NCBI RefSeq assembly: GCF_021172145.1
Contig: NZ_CP089095.1
Location: 1,736,001 to 1,800,000, forward strand
DNA length: 64,000 nucleotides
Direction: 5' to 3'
Origin: Flavobacterium cyclinae
Lineage (GTDB): Bacteria; Bacteroidota; Bacteroidia; Flavobacteriales; Flavobacteriaceae
Every line of letters starts with the position of its first letter. Positions within the stretch are counted from its first letter, which is position 1. Made by a program: the position numbers and the translations under genes. Below are positions 20,456 through 24,185 of the stretch, piece after piece. The notes beneath the pieces were generated by a model. It ran no database searches, was not told the DNA's origin, and worked only from the letters and a program-made list of their open reading frames with translations.

Positions 20456-20475
20456 AATCGTCATAAAATAAAAAA

Positions 20476-20788
20476 GCAGACCTATAAGCCGGATTCTGTC
20501 TCTAATAAATTAGAGCCTTATCATTTATCTAGTCTCGATATTACTATCGGGATCAAGCTGCCTACCCTTCAACATCGGACGAGTAGCCCTTATTTTGATT
20601 ACTCAAAAACTGCTGATATACTTGGCATTTCACCGCATAGAGTTTACCTGGTTTCACTACAGCATTACCTGTACATACTTTCTGTTGCACTTGTCCTCAC
20701 CTTTCGATGGATGGGCGTTACCCACTATGCTACTCTTTGGTGTCCGGACTTTCCTCTCCCGAAAATCGGGAACGATAAGGCGGTCTGC
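20476..20788 (-). ncRNA. rnpB: RNase P RNA, bacterial class A
   Basis: Read on the minus strand it begins GCAGACCGCC. It contains the P4 strand AGAGGAAAGTCCGGAC and the ACAGAAAGT / GGTAAACTC landmarks. It ends ACAGAATCCGGCTTATAGGT followed by CTGC, pairing the two termini. A T-run follows. This is the catalytic RNA that matures tRNA 5' ends. The plus-strand opening 20595-20801 over it is spurious. Confidence 0.96.
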
Positions 20789-20792
20789 GGTG

Positions 20793-20800
20793 CAAATTTA
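20793..20800 (-). promoter_or_regulatory. -7 box of rnpB
   Basis: Minus-strand TAAATTTG lies four bases before the RNA 5' end, the correct place for TAnnTTTG. Confidence 0.6.
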
Positions 20801-20891
20801 GACTATTGAATTTAGAATCTAGAACTAATTCAATAATATTTTAAATTGTGAATAACTTTTATAAAGATTCTTCTCAATTTGGATTTTGGAA

Positions 20892-20939: not shown

Positions 20940-22013
20940 ATGGAACAATTTATCGTATCAGCTCGTAAATATCGTCCGCAAACATTTAAAGATGTTGTGG
21001 GGCAACAAGCTATTACCAATACGTTGTTGAATGCTATTGAAACCAATCATTTGGCACAAGCCTTATTATTTACAGGACCTCGTGGTGTTGGAAAAACAAC
21101 TTGTGCAAGAATTCTAGCCCGAAAAATCAATCAAGAAGGTTATGATGATCCGTTTGAGGATTTCTCATTTAACGTTTTTGAATTAGATGCGGCTTCTAAT
21201 AATGGTGTTGATGATATTAGAAGTATTATCGACCAAGTTAGAATACCACCACAAACTGGAAAATATAAGGTTTATATCATTGACGAGGTGCACATGCTTT
21301 CTCAAGCGGCTTTTAATGCTTTCTTAAAGACATTGGAAGAACCACCTAAGCATGCCATTTTCATTTTAGCAACAACCGAGAAACATAAAATTATTCCAAC
21401 GATTTTATCGCGTTGCCAAATTTTTGATTTCAAAAGAATTACGGTTAAAGATGCGAAAGAACACTTAGCCGAAATTGCGAAAGAACAAGGCATTACATTT
21501 GAAGATGATGCGCTTCACATCATTGCTCAAAAGGCTGATGGTGCTATGCGTGATGCTTTGTCTATTTTTGACCGAGTAGTTTCTTATTGTGGAAATAACT
21601 TAACCAGACAAGCCGTTACCGAAAATTTAAATGTTTTAGATTTTGAATATTACATCAAAATCACCGATTTAATTTTAGAAAATAAAATTCCAGATTTGCT
21701 TTTAGCTTACAATGACATTTTAGCAAAAGGTTTTGATGGGCATCATTTTATTGCTGGTTTGGCTTCGCATTTCAGAGATTTATTAGTGTGTAAAAATCCG
21801 GCAACTTTACCTTTATTGGAAGCTGGTGAACATGCTCAAAGTTTGTATGCAGCGCAATCACATAAAGCCATGCACGATTTCTTATTAAAAGGAATTGAAT
21901 TAGCAAATGAATGCGATTTGAAATATAAAGTCAGTCAAAATCAACGTCTTTTAGTCGAGCTTTGTTTGATGCAATTAGCCTCTATCACTTTTGATGGAGA
22001 AAAAAAAAAGTAG
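20940..22013 (+). CDS. dnaX: DNA polymerase III gamma-form (DnaX domains I-III), zero frame
   Basis: This 357-residue clamp-loader ATPase has the Walker A motif GPRGVGKTT near residue 45, the DEVHMLSQAAFNAFLKTLEEPP box around residues 112-134, and the sensor 1 / SRC motif TILSRC. The zinc-binding cysteine cluster of E. coli DnaX is absent, the segment after Walker A being ARKINQEGYDDPFEDF, as in other Bacteroidota. The frame ends GEKKK then TAG, straight after a run of ten A and a G. The product would stop at the end of domain III, like the gamma subunit. The rest of tau is encoded in the -1 frame. Confidence 0.92.
   Translation: MEQFIVSARKYRPQTFKDVVGQQAITNTLLNAIETNHLAQALLFTGPRGVGKTTCARILARKINQEGYDDPFEDFSFNVFELDAASNNGVDDIRSIIDQVRIPPQTGKYKVYIIDEVHMLSQAAFNAFLKTLEEPPKHAIFILATTEKHKIIPTILSRCQIFDFKRITVKDAKEHLAEIAKEQGITFEDDALHIIAQKADGAMRDALSIFDRVVSYCGNNLTRQAVTENLNVLDFEYYIKITDLILENKIPDLLLAYNDILAKGFDGHHFIAGLASHFRDLLVCKNPATLPLLEAGEHAQSLYAAQSHKAMHDFLLKGIELANECDLKYKVSQNQRLLVELCLMQLASITFDGEKKK
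22004..22010 (+). other. Candidate -1 frameshift site in dnaX (A_AAA_AAG within A10-G)
   Basis: The zero frame reads GAA AAA AAA AAG TAG. The heptamer A_AAA_AAG is in canonical phase and a stop follows at once. Backward slippage by one base enters the long open frame that encodes the tau C-terminus. The same result would follow from one extra A added by transcriptional slippage in the A10 run (22000-22009), or if an A was lost from the sequence. Confidence 0.65.
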
Positions 22014-22702
22014 CTAAATTTATCATTCCGGCTACATATTACAAGAACAACTCCTACTCTATTTCGGAAGTTTCTTCATTAAAAACTCAAGTTCCAACTG
22101 AAGAAATTCAACCTGTTGAAAAAACAGAACCAATCGTAAGCGAGCCTAAAGTATCTACAATTCCAGAAGTTCAAAATGAAGTAGTTGCTCCAATTGTGCC
22201 TGAAATTCCGAAACCTGTTTTAACGAATTTAAATCCGACAGGAACTAAAGTTTCAGCACTCTCATTAGCGAGTATTAAAGCAAAAAAAGAGTTGGAAGCC
22301 CAACAACAAACCGTTCAAAGACATCGCGAAGATTTACCTTCTGAAGCCTTTAACGAAACCGACATGTTGTTGCAATGGAATAAATTTGCCCAAAAAATGG
22401 TAGACAGTGGAAAACGTTTGATGGCAACGTATATGCAAATGAATGATCCTACATTAGATGGAACAAAAATCACGCTGGAACTTCCAAATCAAAGTACAAA
22501 AGAAGAGTTTTTATCAGGTTCGATTGAATTGTTAGGATATTTAAGAGGTAAATTACACAACCATGATATTACCATTGAAGTGGTTGTAAATGAAACTACC
22601 GAAAATAAATACGCCTTTACTCCACAAGAGAAATTTGAACGTTTAAAACAAATTAATCCAGCTTTAGATTTATTGAGAAAGACGTTTGATTTGGATGTTT
22701 AG
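22010..22702 (+). CDS. dnaX: DnaX tau-specific C-terminal extension in the -1 frame
   Basis: Starting VAKFIIPATYYK at 22010 the frame is open for 230 residues to the TAA-equivalent end at 22702. This is a proline/glutamate-rich linker (about 70 residues) followed by a folded C-terminal domain with DMLLQWNKFAQKM and KFERLKQINPALDLLRKTF, typical of Bacteroidota DnaX ends. Tau contacts the polymerase core and DnaB helicase. There is no plausible independent start, so expression must come from frameshifting, giving a 587-residue tau. The intact reading frame over 690 bases shows it is under selection. Confidence 0.85.
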   Translation, partial: VAKFIIPATYYKNNSYSISEVSSLKTQVPTEEIQPVEKTEPIVSEPKVSTIPEVQNEVVAPIVPEIPKPVLTNLNPTGTKVSALSLASIKAKKELEAQQQTVQRHREDLPSEAFNETDMLLQWNKFAQKMVDSGKRLMATYMQMNDPTLDGTKITLELPNQSTKEEFLSGSIELLGYLRGKLHNHDITIEVVVNETTENKYAFTPQEKFERLKQINPALDLLRKTFDLDV

Positions 22703-23723: not shown

Positions 23724-24185
23724 TCAAATAGGCTCTTTAAAAATATAACGTTCATCATAGTCCACTTCAAAAGCTTCTAAAAATTCTAAATATTCCTCTT
23801 GAAATGTTTTTATTTTATGACGTTCTTCCTGATTCTGAATATATTTAATTACATTTTGAACATTTGATTTTGAATACGAAAAAGCACCATAACCTTCTTG
23901 CCATTCAAATTTTACTTTCAAGAACTTTTTCTCATTAATCCATTTAGAGCTATTAGCTTTAATAATTTGCATCAATTCAGAAATGGATTGTGTTGGGCGC
24001 ATTCCAATTAGAATATGAATGTGGTCTGACATTCCATTAATGGCTAATAGTTTATGATTGTTGGCTTTAATTATTCCTGAAATATATTGGTATAATTCTT
24101 CTTTGAATGAAGAATGTATTAATCCGTCTCTATATTTTACTGCAAAAACAAATTGTATATGAATTTGTGTATATGTGTTTGCCAT
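23724..24185 (-). CDS. REP-associated tyrosine transposase (IS200/IS605 TnpA-like)
   Basis: This 153-residue Y1 transposase-fold protein has an HUH motif in GMSDHIHILI near residue 60. A C-terminal helix contains GAFSYSKSNVQNVIKYIQNQEERH, which holds the probable nucleophilic tyrosine. Hairpin repeats on both sides identify it as a RAYT domesticated transposase rather than a free IS. RAYTs cut single-stranded DNA at REP hairpins and are thought to spread them. The gene appears intact. Confidence 0.9.
   Translation of the reverse strand: MANTYTQIHIQFVFAVKYRDGLIHSSFKEELYQYISGIIKANNHKLLAINGMSDHIHILIGMRPTQSISELMQIIKANSSKWINEKKFLKVKFEWQEGYGAFSYSKSNVQNVIKYIQNQEERHKIKTFQEEYLEFLEAFEVDYDERYIFKEPI

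Follow-up and report, generated by a model that had tools for sequence, protein, structure and literature searches.

A conserved A-run at a frame break in Flavobacterium dnaX, with RNA-polymerase slippage as the candidate route to gamma and tau

The window, the whole 64,000-nucleotide stretch analysed here (RefSeq contig NZ_CP089095.1; coordinates 1736001–1800000), is from the Flavobacterium cyclinae genome, which is 100% complete in one contig of 3.0 Mb. The zero frame of dnaX (window coordinates 20940–22013, forward strand) was found to encode a gamma-like product of 357 amino acids (aa), which matched NCBIfam model NF011531 (DNA polymerase III gamma/tau) over model positions 1–369 (E 2.8e-186; 621 bits, also below the model cut-off of 685) as well as TIGR02397, and the profile search also returned matches to DnaX clamp-loader models. 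This frame reads GGA GAA AAA AAA AAG TAG across a run of ten A's (22000–22009, forward strand) that is flanked by GATGGAG on the 5' side and GTAGCTAAATTT on the 3' side, and it ends at the TAG at 22011–22013. The tau-specific C-terminal region of DnaX was found in the -1 frame, which is open for 230 codons plus a stop (22010–22702, forward strand) and in which the first ATG, GTG or TTG is a GTG at 22196. The 230-residue translation matched NF011531 at model positions 398–613 of 614 (E 3.9e-27), with a whole-protein score of 95 that is under the cut-off of 685, as expected for a fragment, and a Pfam search matched no family. An A_AAA_AAG heptamer, a possible site for a ribosomal shift, lies in canonical phase at 22004–22010 with the zero-frame stop directly after it, and the third frame is closed by a TAA at 22015–22017, two codons past the run. 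The 357-residue gamma-like frame ending GAA AAA AAA AAG TAG, the DnaX C-terminal frame without its own start and the in-phase heptamer followed directly by a stop had all been described in an earlier reading of the same DNA (the original prediction), and each was confirmed.

Among the best 120 database hits to the zero-frame product, 112 entries were of 357–412 aa without the tau part, and the other 8, of 568–598 aa, were alone in carrying Pfam family PF28557. The tau C-terminal part is therefore absent from most of the listed Flavobacterium DnaX entries. Flavobacterium celericrescens and F. aquaticum are among the nearest named relatives, each with 97% identity over 357 aa, in a set from which records of the same or very near genomes may be absent. 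Among the matches listed from 199 genomes of the genus, the open frames were of 360–414 codons, except for 11 of 588–614 codons.

A total of 299 dnaX loci was gathered, the end of domain III was located in all of them, and removal of 14 duplicates left 285 distinct loci. The genus sample consisted of 60 loci picked by place and deliberately included 10 listed unbroken genomes and others with odd frame lengths. The family sample consisted of 40 loci picked by place, 13 of them broken, and omitted one listed broken locus at a contig end (G236), and 60 loci from the order, class and phylum were picked by hand. A set of 74 loci at 85–97% identity (L223–L296) was assigned to Flavobacterium by similarity, several of the MAG titles giving other genera or only the family.

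Between 8 and 12 A's were found at the site in 278 of the 285 distinct Bacteroidota loci of this hand-picked sample, exactly ten in 248 of them, with lengths of 9, 11 and 12 also occurring. The run was absent from four distant loci, all outside the class, and three further loci had just 6–7 A's; these seven loci were omitted from the frame counts, which cover 278 loci. Tau was either in frame with the upstream part (94 loci), reached by one extra A or a -1 shift ('+1A'; 176 loci) or reached by one A fewer ('-1A'; 8 loci: L021, L125, L129, L133, L135, L164, L170 and L271), shares that are not frequencies, as sampling was purposive and unbroken Flavobacterium loci are over-represented. The 94 and 278 loci still include L182, which is truncated by a contig end, has a void 'in frame' state and is absent from the tree described below. 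In the 151 distinct Flavobacterium or Flavobacterium-like loci, the break seen in the window was present in 137, tau was in frame in 12 and the opposite shift was needed in 2. The 74 loci of other Flavobacteriaceae genera with a run of at least 8 A's were made up of 59 with tau in frame, 11 '+1A' and 4 '-1A'. With the same minimum run length, the respective numbers were 14 (the void L182 among them), 18 and 2 for 34 loci of other Flavobacteriales, 7, 6 and 0 for 13 loci of other Bacteroidia, and 2, 4 and 0 for 6 further loci of the phylum. In the 176 '+1A' loci the tau frame was open for a median of 224 codons past the run. The codon phase of the run was 1 in all 151 Flavobacterium loci and 0, 1 or 2 elsewhere.

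The state of the tau frame changed at least 32 times on a FastTree tree of 277 rows, which is approximate and unrooted, with 22 changes when the family alone was counted and 9 inside Flavobacterium. The run persists regardless of which frame encodes tau, also beyond the genus. The original prediction had named a comparison with close relatives as a check on whether run and break are kept, and the 137 of 151 loci with the same break bear it out. It had also stated that relatives lacking the A-run but having an uninterrupted frame would speak against its claim; many relatives are indeed uninterrupted, yet they have the A-run. The reversal of the E. coli logic that it had proposed holds in that tau requires recoding in the window. 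However, this is a local state, as 59 of the 74 loci from other genera of Flavobacteriaceae combine the A-run with an in-frame tau, and the 'reversed' state is most likely one of three interchangeable states of a slippage switch.

Both frames that do not encode tau were found to be closed within 10 codons past the run in 273 of the 278 loci, and in the window they are shut by the TAG at 22011 and the TAA at 22015. The mean distance to a stop in the non-tau frames was 3.3 codons (556 frames) versus 12–14 codons at control places in the same genes, and a stop was present within 6 codons in 96.4% of the 556 frames versus 42% at control places. Shortly past the run, the tau protein usually has the sequence F/Y-I/V-I-P, and in family loci with tau in frame an ATA or GTA codon for the I/V residue, together with the next base, creates a TAA in the '-1A' frame. 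Codon choice at this residue was examined in 209 of 225 family loci, the other 16 being without the motif; the loci are related and not independent, and counts rather than probabilities are given. Where tau was in frame and the '-1A' frame contained no stop before this point, the codon was ATA in 52 of 56 and GTA in 4 of 56, against a background in which ATA makes up 21% of the Ile codons elsewhere in these genes (a figure for Ile alone, with no Val counterpart). Two in-frame loci in which an earlier stop was already present had GTA and GTT.

In loci of the window's type the same I/V codon provides the gamma stop, and where no earlier stop was present it was ATA in 132 of 134 and GTA in 2 of 134. 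Where that frame had an earlier stop, the codon was ATC in 9 of 12 loci and ATA in 3 of 12. Eight of the nine ATC loci are L004–L011, which are the window and its nearest relatives, the codon in the window being the relaxed ATC (Ile) of F-I-I-P at 22022–22024 (forward strand). All five '-1A' loci that carry the motif have ATA. The sequence is thus maintained so as to terminate non-tau products in both other frames, as would be expected if transcripts with 9, 10 and 11 A's all occur. Changes past the run relative to the nearest relatives, from ungapped and mixed comparisons, numbered 1/4/6 for L005 and 27/27/28 for L010 at codon positions 1/2/3, and no conclusion was based on these counts.

The 20 bases preceding the run (CTCTATCACTTTTGATGGAG; coordinates 21980–21999, forward strand) form an inverted repeat with an 8-bp stem and a 4-nt loop (CTCTATCA CTTT TGATGGAG), with no spacer between the stem and the first A. 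The segment from 21974 to 22020, which includes the run, gave a folding z-score of -3.35. The 24 nt directly 5' of the run had a mean folding energy of -8.4 kcal/mol in Flavobacterium and -7.3 kcal/mol in other Flavobacteriaceae, compared with -1.4 and -1.6 kcal/mol at control places, and 98% and 84% of loci, respectively, were under the 5th percentile of controls. This held for 15%, 23% and 0% of loci beyond the family, and the hairpin is weak or absent there. A hairpin of -5 kcal/mol or lower was found in all three frame states, and in 6 of 11 '+1A' loci of the other genera of the family.

Synonymous constraint and covariation were assessed only where the run is in codon phase 1 (151 and 68 loci; 57 distinct 20-mers). 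Over the last 100 codons, 6 of the 7 most strongly constrained columns in Flavobacterium were at codons -7 to -1, and in other Flavobacteriaceae genera 9 of the top ten were at -7 to +2. Within the hairpin of Flavobacterium, ATC was used in 95% of loci with Ile (14% expected) and GCC in 96% of loci with Ala (20% expected), and one constrained codon, ACT, which is mostly in the loop, is unexplained by the stem. Two-sided changes were seen at pair 5-16 (A-T to C-G and to G-C) and pair 7-14 (C-G to T-A). Cells with two-sided changes numbered 18 among the 57 distinct sequences (shuffles, mean 7.4 and maximum 14), and 80% of cells were paired versus 76% in shuffles. Pairs that showed two-sided changes numbered 3, which was not above shuffles (3.7), and the covariation is therefore modest, with kinship uncontrolled. 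When the seven codons of the window were recoded synonymously, all 8 pairs were retained in 6% and 7 pairs in 22% of weighted codings, and a single sequence is therefore insufficient as proof of the hairpin. The hairpin probably raises or tunes slippage, and it may push in either direction; tau needs a change of +1 or -2.

With the break, its conservation, the three frame states, the closed non-tau frames, and the hairpin with its codon constraint all present in the DNA itself, it is likely that one dnaX gene directs the synthesis of both gamma and tau through programmed RNA-polymerase slippage on the A10 run, with slippage as the main route. Messenger that is unslipped (10 A's) or one short (9 A's) would meet a stop within 3 codons past the run and yield a gamma-like protein of 357–358 aa, and the gain of one A, or the loss of two, would join the frames in the messenger and yield tau of ~587 aa. 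In Flavobacteriaceae, the hairpin in the nascent RNA would end at the base immediately preceding the run, placing it just behind the 9–10 bp RNA-DNA hybrid once the polymerase is at the end of the run. Because slippage would supply every frame, indels that swap the templated frame would be tolerated and the frame in the DNA could flip often in evolution. We infer from the sequences that slippage occurs in vivo, together with its rate, the production of both proteins and the effect of the hairpin.

The original prediction had favoured a -1 frameshift at A_AAA_AAG. In such a scheme, shifting ribosomes in Flavobacterium would make tau and non-shifting ribosomes gamma, either alone or on top of slippage. 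The original prediction was right that tau needs recoding and that the heptamer is in phase, as it is in 134 of 137 Flavobacterium '+1A' loci. Furthermore, tRNA-Lys(UUU) was the sole lysine tRNA that ARAGORN called across the loci and stretches of the same genome with the 47 Rfam tRNA hits, a condition under which slippage at A_AAA_AAG is efficient in E. coli according to the available text of PMC5009743. However, programmed ribosomal frameshifting is unlikely and is less well supported than the Thermus-like transcriptional slippage that the original prediction had listed as an alternative. The in-phase heptamer is absent from 31 of the 39 '+1A' loci outside Flavobacterium, and it is therefore the run rather than the heptamer that the phylum keeps. 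Seven bases are enough for a -1 shift, yet ten are maintained. The eight '-1A' loci require the loss of one A, an outcome that a -1 shift cannot supply, and the '-1A' frame, which is out of its reach, is held closed where tau is in frame; slippage would explain both the kept stop and these loci, and a -1 ribosomal shift neither. The window itself has a weak stem directly past the run (z -1.84, matched by 9 of 200 shuffles), but a downstream stem-loop stimulator of the E. coli type is not conserved across the family, as 0 of 151 and 0 of 74 family loci had 3' structure under the 5th percentile of controls. GGAG is located 3 nt 5' of the heptamer in the window. This spacing differs from that in E. 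coli. An upstream stimulator like that of E. coli is probably not to be expected, as Bacteroidia ribosomes fail to recognise Shine-Dalgarno sequences according to PMC9976891. Within Flavobacterium, ribosomal frameshifting could nevertheless contribute alongside slippage. Stable stems, with -11.8 and -13.6 kcal/mol over 45 nt, were observed 3' of the dnaX A-run in L177 and L178, which belong to another family of the order, and other lineages may use a different stimulator of this kind.

Two other explanations each have a very low probability. Homopolymers are error-prone and mutable, and the lengths of 9, 11 and 12 found among relatives could be taken to indicate a sequencing error, a pseudogene or a run that undergoes phase variation in the DNA. 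However, the identical break in 137 of 151 distinct Flavobacterium or Flavobacterium-like loci, from many assemblies, excludes the one-base sequence error raised in the original prediction and likewise a pseudogene, and the tau frame is open well past the run in the '+1A' loci. As the gamma and tau frames adjoin, the C-terminal part of tau could also be a separate protein made by re-initiation past the gamma stop, but a tau-frame ATG, GTG or TTG within 30 nt of that stop was present in just 7 of 184 broken loci and was never ATG, and re-initiation was rejected on these numbers. The first tau-frame ATG in broken loci is at a median of 107 codons past the run, and in the window the earliest start codon of any kind is the GTG at 22196.

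Transcriptional slippage on the A10 run remains the preferred route, and a wider reading is about evenly poised. This is that Bacteroidota dnaX carries an old, phylum-wide slippage switch in which slippage would be efficient enough to make the templated frame near-neutral, with at least about 30 flips in the sample (also into '-1A'), selection would hold the run near the length of the hybrid and keep stops in both other frames, and a terminator-like hairpin abutting the run in Flavobacteriaceae would set the ratio of gamma to tau during transcription. The probability given to this reading was lowered slightly, since around half of the few '+1A' loci from the family's other genera lack the hairpin. 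If it is correct, a seemingly broken gene would become evidence for phylum-wide decoding of a replication gene through polymerase slippage, with its DNA frame free to drift. The loci also provide a natural series (in frame, '+1A' and '-1A', with and without the hairpin) in which the action of a 5'-adjacent RNA hairpin on homopolymer slippage could be tested.

The split dnaX architecture and the idea of reversed roles have been known since 2013, when Antonov et al. described, in the portion of the report available (PMC3711429), a new dnaX type that needs recoding for tau, comprising 17 genes from 12 genera, nine of them with ten A's, and proposed slippage. The window resembles these two-ORF genes, with gamma in the zero frame, the two ORFs separated in the DNA by a -1 (or +1A) transition and a run of ten A's at that point, and the ten-A species of that study may include Flavobacteria. 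Whereas the 2013 study, as far as its available text goes, dealt with a cluster of 17 genes, the Bacteroidota loci span the phylum and show three frame states, a stop maintained in the third frame and a hairpin directly 5' of the run. In the literature on dnaX with Flavobacterium, Bacteroidetes or slippage, of which coverage was incomplete and did not extend to the list of ten-A species in the 2013 supplement, no account was found of the conservation across the phylum, of the recurrent frame flips, of the maintained stop in the third frame or of the hairpin.

Transcriptional slippage on nine A's has been shown for the dnaX gene of Thermus thermophilus, where gamma and tau are made from mixed messengers (PMC1088944 and PMC5009743, from the text available). 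The Thermus type is marked by messengers that vary in A number and by gamma and tau at about 1:1. The window shares with it a long A-run, of at least nine, near the end of the gamma part, and nearby stops in both non-tau frames, the latter as in the 273 loci above. However, in T. thermophilus tau is in frame and slippage produces gamma, whereas gamma is in frame in the window, and the 5' hairpin present in the window is not mentioned for T. thermophilus in the available portions of those two reports. E. coli dnaX, with -1 ribosomal frameshifting at A_AAA_AAG, has the same gene, heptamer and two products as the window but with the roles swapped, and in the family of the window no downstream stem is conserved and a Shine-Dalgarno stimulator is not to be expected. 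A stem-loop in a Roseiflexus insertion sequence stimulates slippage at T5C5 with a specific one-base deletion (Penno 2015, as cited in the available text of PMC5009743). An inverted repeat 5'-adjacent to the slippery motif is common to that element and to dnaX in the window, where the hairpin would lie at the upstream edge of the 9–10 bp hybrid. However, dnaX has an A10 homopolymer in place of T5C5 and tau would need +1 or -2 rather than a deletion of one base, with a putative effect of the hairpin.

Runs of at least ten A's or T's were found at 30 distinct places in the same genome and, apart from that in dnaX, 23 of 29 lay outside any ORF of at least 80 aa in the stretches read. About 92% of the window lies in ORFs of at least 100 aa. 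The scarcity of long runs in ORFs, based on 30 runs, fits avoidance within genes of slippage-prone runs, or of indel-prone DNA. One 305-aa ORF with no Pfam match (L313, 1304–2218; run at C1:856904–856913) has a sense-strand A10 ~200 nt from its start, which is possibly another slippage site. A 392-aa ORF with a match to O-antigen ligase (Wzy_C) (L339, 1366–2541, reverse strand; run at C1:2463743–2463752) has a sense-strand T10, for which slippage or phase variation is conceivable.

Just upstream of dnaX in the window, the opposite strand encodes a bacterial class A RNase P RNA (RF00010, 197 bits; coordinates 20469–20791, reverse strand). A 68-aa ORF at 20595–20801 is almost entirely inside this RNA and is probably not a gene. 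Two genes past dnaX is a 153-aa ORF (coordinates 23724–24185, reverse strand), which from its motifs we take to resemble an IS200/IS605-type transposase.
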